DNA from: a virus
DNA: 25,192 nt
IMG/VR virus record: IMGVR_UViG_3300009161_001944
Location: 1-25,192 of that record
Reading direction: 5' to 3' (one strand)
The notes beneath the pieces were generated by a model that was not told where the DNA came from, did no database searches, and was given only the letters and a program-made list of their open reading frames with translations. Position numbers and translations under genes: made by a program. This document shows positions 3,885 to 21,717 of the stretch, in pieces (position 1 is the stretch's first letter; each line of letters starts with the position of its first letter).

Positions 3885-3913
3885 ATTATACAACATTATT
3901 TAATAAAAGTCAA
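3885..3913 (-). promoter_or_regulatory. Sigma70-type promoter of uvsE
   Basis: On the minus strand TTGACT (3913-3908) and TATAAT (3890-3885) are separated by exactly 17 bases. Transcription would start near 3878, giving a leader of about 27 bases before the uvsE ATG at 3851. The -35 box ends one base from the ATG of the plus-strand homing endonuclease at 3915. The spacer contains TTAAATAA, a possible overlapping late element. Confidence 0.75.
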
Positions 3914-3914
3914 C

Positions 3915-4694
3915 ATGGCAAATACCAAACATCAAAATAAAAGAAAATTCCATACCGTTTATCAAACTACTAACCTGATAAACAATAAGATTTATGTAGG
4001 TGCTCATTCTACAGATGACTTAATTGACGATTATTGTGGATCCGGAACTAACATAAATCGTGCTTTGGAGAAATACGGAAAATCTTCTTTTAAAAAAGAT
4101 ATATTATATGTATTTGAAACGCCAGAGGAAATGTTTTCTAAAGAAAAAGAAATTGTAAACGCTAATTTCGTGAGACGTCCTGATGTTTATAATATCGTAG
4201 AAGGTGGGTATGGGGGATATAATAAAGGAACTACAGGGCTAAAACATCTTTACCATTTAATTACTAATGAAAGATGTGCGGTTCATCCTAACGCTGTAGA
4301 TAAAATGTTACAAAAAGGTTGGTCACTGGGTAGGAATATGTCTCCTACAACAGATACTATTTGGATTTATAAAAATACTGAGAAGAAGATGATAAATCCA
4401 ACCGACTTATCTGTATATGTTAAAGAAGGGTGGCAGAAGGGGCTTCCTAAATCACCCACACATGGAAAAGTTTGGATTTTTCATCCTAATTCATCTGAGT
4501 ATAGTTTGTGCGAAACTTCTGAACTTTCAGTAAAATTATCTATTGGTTGGATTAAAAAGAAGTGGGCTCCTGTTAAAAAAGGAGCCGCTTGGGTAAACAA
4601 CGGTGTTGATAATCTTCGAATTCCTAAAGAAGAAATAGATGCCTATACTTCTAAAGGTTGGAAAAAAGGAATGATCACATCTCGGTGGAATTAA
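3915..4694 (+). CDS. GIY-YIG homing endonuclease with C-terminal repeats
   Basis: A free-standing homing endonuclease of the GIY-YIG class, 259 aa from the ATG at 3915. An upstream in-frame ATG at 3798 would overlap uvsE and lies before the late-type promoter, so it was not used. The nuclease core is FHTVYQTTNLINNKIYVGAH (GIY as VYQ, YIG as YVG), then YCGSGTNINRALEKYGKSSF, a catalytic-type glutamate in SKEKEIVN and the YNIVEGGYGG end. After about residue 110 come four related units of about 30 residues ending in GWxxG or GWxKK motifs, likely DNA-binding. It is on the strand opposite to its neighbours, and its stop shares TTAA with the stop of the convergent 60-aa gene. No Shine-Dalgarno is evident. 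Confidence 0.9.
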   Translation: MANTKHQNKRKFHTVYQTTNLINNKIYVGAHSTDDLIDDYCGSGTNINRALEKYGKSSFKKDILYVFETPEEMFSKEKEIVNANFVRRPDVYNIVEGGYGGYNKGTTGLKHLYHLITNERCAVHPNAVDKMLQKGWSLGRNMSPTTDTIWIYKNTEKKMINPTDLSVYVKEGWQKGLPKSPTHGKVWIFHPNSSEYSLCETSELSVKLSIGWIKKKWAPVKKGAAWVNNGVDNLRIPKEEIDAYTSKGWKKGMITSRWN

Positions 4695-4873
4695 TCACTT
4701 TTAACTTTCGATAGAGTCCATGAACCGTCTTCGTTATCTTTCCAATCCAGCGTATCGCCTTCTACCCAACCTTGTTGATCCAGAAAGTCTTGCGGCAGTG
4801 GCATTACAAGATCGCCACTGCCGTCATCAGCTTCTTCTACAGTTACTGTCCACGATGTTTTAGGTTCAGTCAT
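4691..4873 (-). CDS. AbrB/MazE-like small protein
   Basis: A 60-aa acidic protein. The central segment LVMPLPQDFLDQQGWVEGDT, followed by LDWKDNEDGSWTLSKV, has the strand-turn-strand pattern of the SpoVT-AbrB swapped-hairpin fold (a proline-led strand, a helix, then GWxxGD). Such proteins are often DNA-binding transition regulators or antitoxins, but no toxin gene lies next to it, and phages carry many stand-alone versions of unknown role. The ATG overlaps the stop of the 58-aa gene upstream, so translation is probably coupled. Confidence 0.7.
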   Translation of the reverse strand: MTEPKTSWTVTVEEADDGSGDLVMPLPQDFLDQQGWVEGDTLDWKDNEDGSWTLSKVKSD

Positions 4874-10776: not shown

Positions 10777-10863
10777 TTAGATAACTCCAGTAGAAAAAAG
10801 AAAGAAACAAACACTAAACCCTAGAACAAAATACAGTGGCCGAAGCAACACATTATTAATCAT
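10777..10863 (-). CDS. Possible hydrophobic micropeptide, 28 aa
   Basis: From the ATG at 10863 an open frame encodes 28 residues, MINNVLLRPLYFVLGFSVCF then FLFSTGVI, almost all hydrophobic and able to form one transmembrane helix. AAGGA lies about six bases upstream. Its TAA is one base from the ATG of the SPFH lipoprotein and eight bases follow the stop of the 58-aa gene, fitting the compact operon. Its size makes chance possible. Confidence 0.45.
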   Translation of the reverse strand: MINNVLLRPLYFVLGFSVCFFLFSTGVI

Positions 10864-10871
10864 ATAAGTCC

Positions 10872-11048
10872 TTAAAATAAAATTACAAGTACTGTCATCA
10901 ACATTACTGTTGCCAGTGATACAAGTATACTATAGCCTATGCTTTTTGTCAAGGCCAATTGTTCCAAACCGTTCATATTTCTCAAAGCACGAATGCCAAA
11001 GTGAATAAGAACGGCAATGACTGCAAATGCTAACCAAAGTTTAATCAT
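10872..11048 (-). CDS. Small two-helix membrane protein, 58 aa
   Basis: From the ATG at 11048 this 58-aa frame begins MIKLWLAFAVIAVLIHFGI, has a short polar loop (RALRNMNGLEQLALTKS), and ends in a second hydrophobic segment (about 39-58), so it should be a helical hairpin in the membrane. AAGGATTATCA gives a Shine-Dalgarno, and the ATG overlaps the stop of the 142-aa gene as ATGA. It precedes the 28-aa peptide and the SPFH lipoprotein, forming a membrane gene group. A TTGACA-17-TATACT match (10924-10952) lies inside its coding region. Confidence 0.7.
   Translation of the reverse strand: MIKLWLAFAVIAVLIHFGIRALRNMNGLEQLALTKSIGYSILVSLATVMLMTVLVILF
10924..10952 (-). promoter_or_regulatory. Possible internal sigma70-type promoter
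   Basis: TTGACA (10952-10947) and TATACT (10929-10924) are 17 bases apart on the minus strand, with the same spacing as the other promoters here. It lies within the 58-aa coding sequence and would drive the 28-aa peptide, SPFH lipoprotein and clpP. Because it is inside a gene it could be a coincidence of codon choice. Confidence 0.45.
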
Positions 11049-12867: not shown

Positions 12868-13130
12868 TTTGTTTCCTTTATTCCGTAAATTTCTTCAATC
12901 ATTTTAAAAATTTCAACCTTAACACATTCTGCAATAGATAAATCAAATGTAGTTCTTACACATCTGTTATATGTTGTAGGATCTTTGATGTGTTGCATCA
13001 AATCAGTAATAAGTAACTCGGCTGTACGATTTTGAATCTCCTTGATTTTATCGTAGCCCAATGCTACCCAAGTATCGGGCACTATCTCATCAAGCACCTG
13101 TCCCGTAAGTTGTTTAACTCGTTCGTTCAT
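12864..13130 (-). CDS. Hypothetical helical phage protein, 88 aa
   Basis: MNERVKQLTGQVLDEIVPDT is followed by IQNRTAELLITDLMQHIKD and a helical C-terminus (AECVKVEIFKMIEEIYG). Small proteins with the NERV/I-QL start are common in T4-like phages, function unknown. AAAGG lies before the ATG, which overlaps the stop of the 403-aa gene as ATGA. Confidence 0.7.
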   Translation of the reverse strand: MNERVKQLTGQVLDEIVPDTWVALGYDKIKEIQNRTAELLITDLMQHIKDPTTYNRCVRTTFDLSIAECVKVEIFKMIEEIYGIKETK

Positions 13131-14338
13131 TTATATACCTTTAGGATAATAGTATCTTCACTGAATCGACCATTCAATATTGTTTCCGTAGTTTTGACAC
13201 CTTTGGTAAACCAAGTTTCAAAACGCCGTTGTGTATTTTGCTCTTTGAACTCTTTGATCTGTTCAGGAGGCTTACGTAGAGTCTTTTGCATACTCTTATC
13301 AGTAAATTCAACAATGCTACTGTTCTTAACATTCAACCCTGCGCTAGTTTTAGCAATGTAATAGCCAATTTTTCGAATCTTTGTATTGTAAACAACAACT
13401 GCCTGAGCACCAATAATACCTGCTGGCGGAACACTGGTAATACCGAGTTTAGTGTCGCTCAACATAAACTTTAGTTTCTTAACAATTTCTTCTGCTGGCT
13501 TAACTTTGGCAGCACGTGGCTTCTTCATTACCTTAGCTTCGGCGGCAATCTGCTCACAAGCCTGTGCAATACTTTCGTAAAACTCAATCAGCTTCTTAAC
13601 ATTCTTACGGCTAACGTGCTTATAACCTTCCTTCAACTGATCATCCGCGTTACCACCTGCAAGTTCTTGCAGTTCTGCCAAACCATTTGCAAAGAAGCCC
13701 TTAATGTAGCGAGCTTGTGCAGCCTTGGCACCCTTGCCTTTAAGCAAGTTTACAACTTTAATGTCCTTGGGGTTGAACGCTTCTGGATCAGTAATCCAAG
13801 AATCAATTGCGTAATCAAGTTCGTCACTCATTGTAACAGCTTGTTCACGGATACGATCTTGAATGTTAATAACTTGAGCGGGCAAGCTAGTTTTAACTTC
13901 CGGAACTATTTCCACATCGTATTTGCCGTTTTCAATAACGCTGTCAATTTCGTTCTTCAACCATTCAACTGCACTTTTGTTTTGGTTAAAACCTGCTTTA
14001 ACATCTGGCATACCTTTGATCAAACAGGCTGCAATAGCGCCCATTGTCAAATGGCAGCGCCAATCTTTAGTCTTTTTAAACTTTTGAATAGTTGTTTTGT
14101 CGTAATCGTTACGACCCATCCAATCAATGACCTTAACTTTAAGATCCTTAGCAGAAGTTTCCAAATTGTAATATTTAAGAGCTGCTCGAAAATACGTGGT
14201 GTATTCCGAGGAAGACATGGATTCAGCACCGTCCCATTTTGGACTATAATCACGTTTGGCATTCTCACGAATGCTTACACTAGTGATCTTTTCTTTTTTA
14301 ACCTTGGGTTTAATCTTAATGCCTGCTACTGTTGCCAT
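13127..14338 (-). CDS. Unrecognised 403-aa basic protein downstream of the DnaA-box region
   Basis: The start at 14338 has AGGAG five bases upstream; an earlier in-frame ATG at 14365 lacks a site. The protein starts MATVAGIKIKPKVKKEKITS, has a long helical body, a Lys/Ala/Pro-rich linker around MKKPRAAKVKPAEEIVKKL, and a C-terminal part with PPAGIIGAQAVVVYNTKIRK and YYIAKTSAGLNVKNSS, which looks like a small beta domain. No catalytic motif is recognised. The basic ends fit nucleic-acid binding. It has a consensus sigma70 promoter and lies next to two DnaA boxes and repeats, so a replication or early regulatory role is possible, but that is only context. Confidence 0.75.
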   Translation of the reverse strand: MATVAGIKIKPKVKKEKITSVSIRENAKRDYSPKWDGAESMSSSEYTTYFRAALKYYNLETSAKDLKVKVIDWMGRNDYDKTTIQKFKKTKDWRCHLTMGAIAACLIKGMPDVKAGFNQNKSAVEWLKNEIDSVIENGKYDVEIVPEVKTSLPAQVINIQDRIREQAVTMSDELDYAIDSWITDPEAFNPKDIKVVNLLKGKGAKAAQARYIKGFFANGLAELQELAGGNADDQLKEGYKHVSRKNVKKLIEFYESIAQACEQIAAEAKVMKKPRAAKVKPAEEIVKKLKFMLSDTKLGITSVPPAGIIGAQAVVVYNTKIRKIGYYIAKTSAGLNVKNSSIVEFTDKSMQKTLRKPPEQIKEFKEQNTQRRFETWFTKGVKTTETILNGRFSEDTIILKVYK

Positions 14339-14372
14339 TTTTGCTCCTATGTTTGTGTTTAACAATATCTCT

Positions 14373-14401
14373 ATTATATAGCAAATTCAAGAAGAAGTCA
14401 A
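14373..14401 (-). promoter_or_regulatory. Consensus sigma70 promoter of the 403-aa gene
   Basis: TTGACT (14401-14396) and TATAAT (14378-14373) are exactly 17 bases apart on the minus strand. A start near 14366 gives a leader of about 28 bases to the ATG at 14338. The nearer DnaA box begins 33 bases upstream of the -35 box. Confidence 0.75.
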
Positions 14402-14433
14402 GTGTTTTTTAGGTATCTTTTACCAAAAGTTAC

Positions 14434-14453
14434 TGTGGATAACCTGTGGATAA
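14434..14453 (-). promoter_or_regulatory. Two tandem perfect DnaA boxes
   Basis: TTATCCACA, the consensus high-affinity DnaA box, occurs twice on the minus strand (14442-14434 and 14453-14445), 11 bases apart, close to one helical turn. They lie upstream of the consensus promoter for the 403-aa gene and next to AGCCCC repeats. They could be part of a replication origin or let host DnaA regulate the promoter. Confidence 0.7.
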
Positions 14454-14461
14454 CTTCTACA

Positions 14462-14535
14462 AGCCCCTATAAGCCCCTACAGCAGCCCCGTGTATGTAGA
14501 ATCCCTTGTATCTTTAGCCCCTGCTATAGGGGCTA
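14462..14535. repeat. AGCCCC repeats and 8-bp inverted repeat
   Basis: AAGCCCCTA occurs twice in tandem (14461-14469 and 14471-14479), then AGCCCC at 14484-14489 and 14516-14521, with an inverted copy GGGGCT at 14529-14534. The last two copies form a perfect stem TAGCCCCT (14515-14522) / AGGGGCTA (14528-14535) with a five-base loop. These GC-rich units stand out from the AT-rich surroundings. No T-run follows on either strand, so it is not a standard terminator. Together with the DnaA boxes it is iteron-like. Confidence 0.6.
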
Positions 14536-14545
14536 TAAACGTGTC

Positions 14546-14854
14546 TTAGAACACGGGAATAAATGGTCCAGAGTCCCGCTTAGATATAAGTTCACCATAT
14601 TTGAGTAAAAACATTGTGCGTTTTGGTTCGTTATAAAAATCCAAACGGATAGTTTGTACGCAAAATTTGGTTCTGTATCTGACATCTTTGAGGGATACTT
14701 CCTGCGGAAACCATTCTTCGTGTTCTCTATGAGTAAATCCCAAAACCGATTTCATTTTGTTTCGAATCAGCGTTACACTAGGCGGGTGATCTTTTCGAAT
14801 TTGTTCGTAAATCTTATTCCAAGATTCTTGTGTTAAAATTATAGCTTTGCTCAT
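14546..14854 (-). CDS. Hypothetical phage protein, 102 aa
   Basis: MSKAIILTQESWNKIYEQIR then KDHPPSVTLIRNKMKSVLGF, HREHEEWF and a C-terminal beta-rich part with QTIRLDFYNEPKRTMFLLKY. I know this as a recurring type of phage protein without known function. Basic. Its ATG overlaps the stop of the 195-aa gene as ATGA with no separate Shine-Dalgarno. Downstream is the non-coding repeat region. Confidence 0.7.
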   Translation of the reverse strand: MSKAIILTQESWNKIYEQIRKDHPPSVTLIRNKMKSVLGFTHREHEEWFPQEVSLKDVRYRTKFCVQTIRLDFYNEPKRTMFLLKYGELISKRDSGPFIPVF

Positions 14855-21083: not shown

Positions 21084-21112
21084 AGTTTAGCATAGTTATA
21101 AGAGTAAGTCAA
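21084..21112 (-). promoter_or_regulatory. Possible sigma70-type promoter of the GT-A gene
   Basis: TTGACT (21112-21107) and TAAACT (21089-21084) are 17 bases apart on the minus strand; the -10 is weak (4 of 6). As with uvsE, its -35 box sits at the start codon of an opposing homing endonuclease gene. The similarity of layout raises confidence a little. Confidence 0.4.
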
Positions 21113-21717
21113 TGTTTTTAGATAACAAATACACCAAAGTTTATTACAGAATAATCAACCGTTCTCTTGAGCGTAATCACCTTAAAGAAAGGCACGACGG
21201 GTTTCAGACTCATCATATTATTCCACGCTGTTTTGGCGGAACTGATTCTGCCGATAATCTTGCAGTACTTACTTACAAAGAACATAGAGTTTGTCATCGT
21301 TTATTGATAGGAATGACAGCCGGAGCAAGCAAACATAAAATGATGTATGCCTATAAACTGTTTAACAAACATTACGATACTTCTCATCTACCTACTCCAC
21401 AAATTTATTCTACCCCTGAATCCTATATCAAAATGGTCAAGACACGCAAGCGTCAAGGCACATACAAAACTGGAAAGAATAATATTTTCTCCACTCCGGA
21501 AATTGTTGAACAAGTTCGCCAGCGTATGGTTGATAACAATCCTATGAAAGCATCCGAACAACGACAGCGTATGAGCCTACATAACAATAACCCCAATGTT
21601 TGTCCTATAGTAGTTGAAGGAATAACCTTTCCTACAATAGGAGCCGCATCTCGACATTTTAACACTACTCCATATCTTCTAAGAAAGCGATACACTTACC
21701 GCTTATTAGATTCCTGA
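21112..21717 (+). CDS. HNH homing endonuclease with NUMOD-type DNA-binding modules
   Basis: A 201-aa free-standing homing endonuclease. The HNH (beta-beta-alpha-metal) core is THHIIPRCFGGTDSADNLAV followed by LTYKEHRVCH (about 33-62). Near residues 125-150 a NUMOD3-like element (NIFSTPEIVEQVRQRMVDNN, PM) and at about 166-195 a NUMOD1-like helix-turn-helix (TFPTIGAASRHFNTTPYLLR) should bind the target DNA. It lies on the strand opposite to its neighbours, is preceded by a late-type box, and its last 22 bases overlap the 3' end of folE in convergent orientation. Its own RBS is weak (GAG). Confidence 0.92.
   Translation: MFLDNKYTKVYYRIINRSLERNHLKERHDGFQTHHIIPRCFGGTDSADNLAVLTYKEHRVCHRLLIGMTAGASKHKMMYAYKLFNKHYDTSHLPTPQIYSTPESYIKMVKTRKRQGTYKTGKNNIFSTPEIVEQVRQRMVDNNPMKASEQRQRMSLHNNNPNVCPIVVEGITFPTIGAASRHFNTTPYLLRKRYTYRLLDS

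Follow-up and report, generated by a model that had tools for sequence, protein, structure and literature searches.

Exact tandem DnaA boxes upstream of a conserved sigma-70 promoter in a viral genome fragment

The window, the whole stretch of 25,192 nucleotides analyzed here, is a 25-kb viral fragment in which two exact DnaA boxes lie side by side in a non-coding gap, raising the question of what sites for a host replication initiator could do in front of a phage gene. The gap comprises 207 bp (14339-14545) and is the second longest of the window behind 10779-11044, not the longest as the preliminary description had stated. Read on the minus strand from the upstream 102-aa gene to the 403-aa gene, the order is a hairpin, a 14-bp inverted repeat, a 10-bp tandem repeat, the double box and a promoter. 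The features, some compared with the related locus L013 and its sister loci L048 and L060, are as follows.

14546..14854, minus strand: the upstream 102-aa gene, without a family match.
14540..14555, minus strand: hairpin with a 5-bp stem, CGTGTTCTAAGACACG, followed by TTTAT, covering the stop codon of the 102-aa gene; derived from folds.
14521..14534, minus strand: promoter-distal arm of the 14-bp inverted repeat, AGCCCCTATAGCAG, with one G-T mismatch to the other arm.
14515-14522/14528-14535: 8-bp stem TAGCCCCT/AGGGGCTA, present in the window and not among the repeats reported for L013.
14472..14485, minus strand: promoter-proximal arm of the 14-bp inverted repeat, CTGCTGTAGGGGCT, with the same sequence in L013.
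14457..14476, minus strand: 10-bp tandem repeat that includes two AGGGGCT units and adjoins the double box, kept in L013 with its distance to the boxes changed by 3 bp.
14445..14453, minus strand: promoter-distal DnaA box 1, an exact TTATCCACA at -88 to -80 relative to the inferred transcription start; same sequence in L013/L048/L060.
14434..14442, minus strand: promoter-proximal DnaA box 2, an exact TTATCCACA at -77 to -69 relative to the inferred transcription start; same sequence in L013/L048/L060.
14401-14373, minus strand: sigma-70 promoter TTGACT-17-TATAAT; nearly all relatives with upstream sequence have a promoter at the same place.
13127..14338, minus strand: the 403-aa gene that the promoter precedes, a PHROG 11903 gene of unknown function.

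The fragment probably comes from a large T4-like phage, judging from the relatives of the 403-aa gene and from the T4-like RNase H near which the relative lies in Sinorhizobium phage phiM12 and Ochrobactrum phage OC. About 60 viral contigs, up to 259 kb long, contain a relative, and more distant relatives are found in isolates such as these two and Pseudomonas phage PA5oct. The window itself carries genes for UvdE, GTP cyclohydrolase I, ClpP, MazG and a band-7 protein, together with glycosyltransferase and sugar-nucleotide enzymes. The 403-aa protein has no Pfam match and no PDB sequence match, and its AlphaFold model (pLDDT 82, pTM 0.38) gave no significant fold match. No close phage isolate or plasmid with the cassette emerged from the searches, which returned weak short matches only. 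In seven records, some of them fragments, no match to a phage-encoded DnaA domain IV or DnaB helicase was found; a family B DNA polymerase is encoded about 50-55 kb away in two large relatives.

The two boxes have the same orientation, a start-to-start distance of 11 bp and a 2-bp gap consisting of GG. They are the only exact copies of TTATCCACA in the window, for which 0.41-0.51 exact boxes and 1.2-1.7e-4 same-strand pairs at 9-40 bp start-to-start are expected by chance. Sites with at most one mismatch number 12 against 10.5 expected, indicating that single near-boxes are background. The preliminary description had reported two perfect boxes 11 bp apart and judged their chance occurrence in 25 kb very unlikely; both statements hold, with a pair expectation of about 1.5e-4, and the scan that it proposed, here of the whole window, shows that exact boxes are not scattered elsewhere. 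The same pattern emerged from 48 related records (3,244,308 bp), which were chosen by the 403-aa gene and not by boxes. These records contain 41 exact boxes. Six tandem pairs, each located upstream of a 403-aa-type gene, account for twelve of them, and the remaining 29 compare with 27 for a reversed-pattern control, which puts single boxes at background.

The promoter matches 11/12 consensus bases, is the only promoter-like site within 13.9-15.0 kb, and was correctly placed by the preliminary description. Among ~56 related phage loci, TTGAC-16/18-TATAAT precedes the 403-aa homolog in nearly all of those with upstream sequence, and it is kept just before the homologs irrespective of which gene is upstream; genes like the 102-aa gene occupy that position in several relatives, but not in L013. 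The boxes lie at a regulatory distance from a sigma-70 promoter. Their positions in L013 (-87..-79 and -76..-68) differ by 1 bp from those in the window, even though the spacer has indels, so that the box centres lie about -73 and -84 from the inferred start in two lineages. All exact boxes within 400 bp upstream have one common orientation.

Most relatives keep the promoter without the boxes. Among the related loci, exact boxes in tandem are confined to the window, L013/L048/L060 and L027/L028/L030, with a 2-bp gap in the window and the L013 group and a 3-bp gap in the third group. L013, L048 and L060 represent one lineage, near-identical to each other at the locus, and the full cassette is therefore known from two distinct sequences. 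Between these two, the 403-aa gene has 74% protein identity, 74% DNA identity and 54% identity at fourfold-degenerate sites, 46% of which differ. In spite of this divergence, two intergenic runs of about 24-26 bp each are identical, one comprising an inverted-repeat arm and the 10-bp repeat and the other the double box and its left flank. The DNA between and around these runs has diverged, with indels. A transferred block would have brought the intervening DNA too, and we infer from the patchy identity and the constant spacing in these alignments that selection is a better explanation than recent transfer. The conservation on which the preliminary description had made its claim depend is thus found in one lineage, with a separate double box in another.

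The repeats next to the boxes share this conservation in part. AGCCCC is found at 14462, 14472, 14484 and 14516 and GGGGCT at 14529, confirming the earlier count of five units, two of them in 10-bp tandem and two as an 8-bp stem. The preliminary description had missed the 14-bp inverted repeat, whose arms are separated by 35 bp in the window and 36 bp in L013. L013 also has a hairpin at the same place over the upstream stop codon, with a different sequence. The hairpin at 14540..14555 is possibly a weak terminator; a simple terminator scan did not call it.

The best reading, to which we assign a probability of about 0.5, is that the segment regulates the sigma-70 promoter from an upstream position by means of host DnaA. 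Host DnaA would bind, probably as a dimer, to the two boxes centred at about -73 and -84, and the bound protein would modulate host RNA polymerase at TTGACT-17-TATAAT, such that transcription of the 403-aa gene would track the level or the nucleotide state of host DnaA. The position of the boxes, upstream of the polymerase core contacts, makes activation likelier than repression. The AGGGGCT repeats and the 14-bp inverted repeat are probably the operator of a second DNA-binding protein. Control of the promoter by host DnaA is preferred because a conserved sigma-70 promoter lies at a fixed distance and because DnaA is an established transcription factor, which activates ori-lambda transcription (PMC8203912). 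A DnaA-controlled promoter for the 403-aa gene was one of the two proposals of the preliminary description, and it gains support from the conserved promoter, the box distance constant to 1 bp and the location of all pairs upstream of the gene. In vivo, the sites of E. coli DnaA are mainly box pairs with a 2- or 3-bp gap, and spoiling one box, or adding 1 bp to a 3-bp gap, strongly cuts binding (PMC11317965). Several considerations weaken the proposal. A promoter with 11/12 consensus bases may need no activator, and a survey of alphaproteobacterial phages showing no positional asymmetry of DnaA sites counts against it (PMC9437464). Since the promoter of most relatives lacks the double box, control by DnaA would at best be a lineage-specific addition.

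The double box of L027/L028/L030 is found some 300 bp upstream of the 403-aa homolog (boxes at -296/-284, and at -307/-295 in L030) and about 250-265 bp upstream of the start, and the fixed box-promoter geometry is therefore not general. It is located inside another gene, which, judged from its residues, looks like a class I glutamine amidotransferase. Thirteen homologs of this gene, some near-identical to each other, are without the double box and have other residues there (for example EHKVQYH or EHAVIYN, compared with IHKVIHN in L027/L028/L030). The seven box codons are the same in 3/3 genomes vs. 74-85% identity of same-residue codons gene-wide, seven codons being too few for significance on codon identity alone. 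The pairs of the two lineages occupy non-homologous positions and have different gaps (2 bp vs. 3 bp). In a tree, both box lineages fall, along with boxless rows, into a single well supported group of 17 rows, a grouping that does not separate one gain from independent gains. Tentatively, and with the odds against it, some T4-like phages might have placed an ideal pair of DnaA boxes in front of the 403-aa-type gene at least twice, once via codon changes in an overlapping gene; the conserved 403-aa-type gene would then read the replication-initiation state of the host, and virulent phages would have host DnaA as a recurrent transcription input.

A phage replication origin, the other proposal of the preliminary description, is unlikely. 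DnaA would open or mark the site, or the promoter transcript would prime as at the promoter-linked origins of T4, and the repeats would be initiator sites. Two high-affinity boxes, short repeats, an inverted repeat and a promoter do form a familiar origin layout, oriC and plasmid origins likewise combine exact DnaA boxes with adjoining repeats, and 14348-14387 is 80% A+T. However, this A+T stretch ranks no higher than the top 2-4% of the window, overlaps the promoter and does not appear to be a marked unwinding element; there are two boxes only, with no further DnaA-like box nearby; most relatives lack the boxes here; and no linked initiator gene was found. The preliminary description had suggested looking for a turn in the cumulative GC skew at the locus. 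In G038, G010, G029 and G039, four related records that span 77-229 kb, the skew passes the locus smoothly and turns only elsewhere, which counts against an origin, albeit as a weak test under recombination-driven replication. The family B DNA polymerase of the two large relatives also fits a phage that has a replisome of its own.

It is distinctly unlikely that the pair serves as a decoy, in which many phage copies would draw DnaA off oriC and stop host initiation, the adjacent promoter being incidental. Multicopy DnaA boxes do titrate DnaA in E. coli (PMC5835720), and viral contigs in general have a strong excess of tandem boxes: pairs with a 2-bp gap number at least 120 vs. 2 for the reversed pattern, and are thus at least 60 times commoner. 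Titration, however, needs no site upstream of one gene, no single orientation and no promoter distance fixed to 1 bp, and it leaves the conserved inverted repeat unexplained.

Tandem pairs of exact DnaA boxes abound in the environmental viral contigs L068-L147; the gap is GG or AG in most cases, and arrays are frequent. Among 81 tandem pairs in other phages, a set selected for TTGAC 15-45 bp downstream, a loose -10 follows in 25 and a strict -10 in 2, both in L143. In several unrelated families, L284/L296/L332 and L276/L283/L345 among them, the distance between the boxes and a TTGAC-n-TATACT-like site is constant. Because of the selection for TTGAC, these pairs are suggestive only of a general link between tandem boxes and promoters in other phages.

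The 11-bp repeat GTTATCCACAG could instead be the site of another phage or host regulator, its likeness to DnaA boxes being coincidental, and the adjoining conserved repeats do imply at least one further DNA-binding protein. We regard this as very unlikely for the boxes themselves, as both are exact in two lineages and the 2-bp and 3-bp gaps are those of DnaA in vivo; with no phage DnaA domain IV found in the seven records, such a regulator could only be an unrelated protein. A chance occurrence or neutral leftover without function is highly improbable, for although most relatives manage without the double box, the pair expectation is very low, long identical runs persist despite the divergence at fourfold sites, and every tandem pair in 3.24 Mb precedes the 403-aa-type gene, in two lineages.

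Among known systems, control of the promoter by DnaA would resemble that at the double DnaA boxes of E. coli (purH, polA and mutH/DARS2; Stringer et al. 2024, PMC11317965), which are likewise tandem with a 2- or 3-bp gap and in many cases lie upstream of genes linked to DnaA. The putative phage site differs in having both boxes at exact consensus and in carrying the AGGGGCT array and the inverted repeat. The lambda ori, as cited in PMC8203912 from Szalewska-Palasz et al. 1998, is likewise a phage transcription unit on which host DnaA acts; according to that citation lambda transcription serves replication, whereas here an exact tandem pair lies upstream of the promoter of a T4-like phage gene of unknown function. 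Alphaproteobacterial phages have promoters with sites for CtrA, likewise a host cell-cycle regulator ('lytic deferment', PMC9437464); the regulator differs, and DnaA sites in the phages surveyed there lack positional asymmetry. If DnaA binds the double box, a phage whose relatives own replication genes would still sense the host replication initiator via a promoter, and the 403-aa gene would probably be timed to the growth or cell-cycle state of the host. Together with the excess of tandem boxes in environmental phage contigs, host DnaA would then be a testable and perhaps widespread control input of phages, analogous to CtrA in Caulobacter phages.

Other explanations of the repeats were discarded. 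The inverted repeat folds well as RNA in both versions (z of -3.2 and -5.0), but the predicted structures differ, and two distinct sequences are too few for covariation; no known RNA families were found in the window. Searches for GGGGCT with a 2-bp-gap double box, made for a cassette derived from a bacterial chromosome, yielded scattered unrelated genomes only. As a mobile element, TAGGGGCTTATAGGGGCT was found beyond the L013-type phages in two contigs only, without adjoining boxes, a tally at about chance level for a collection of such size.

Several further observations concern promoters. TTGGTAAAACC is located just 5' of the -35 of the promoter of the 403-aa gene in many relatives, with TTTTGGTAAAAG in the window, and a cluster of strong promoters in G010 (198431-207231) has TTGGTAAAACC in the -35/-10 spacer of many of its members; the motif is possibly the site of a phage regulator. 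A separate group of strong promoters has the -10 inside a 10-13 bp inverted repeat with the second arm 3' of the -10, in some cases followed by a T-rich stretch (window 16754, minus strand; G038 7881, 16291 and 47553; G010 17449 and 143435; G029 174316). At these sites a promoter and a terminator-like hairpin overlap, and the version AAAAGGTATAGTATAAT..ACTATACCTTTT is present in three genomes. Elsewhere in the window, two homing endonuclease-like genes (3891-4694 and 21112-21717, both plus strand) lie on the strand opposite to the other genes, the pair comprising a SegE-type GIY-YIG and a weak HNH match, and 4691-4873 (minus strand) encodes a 60-aa protein with a sub-threshold MazE-antitoxin match.
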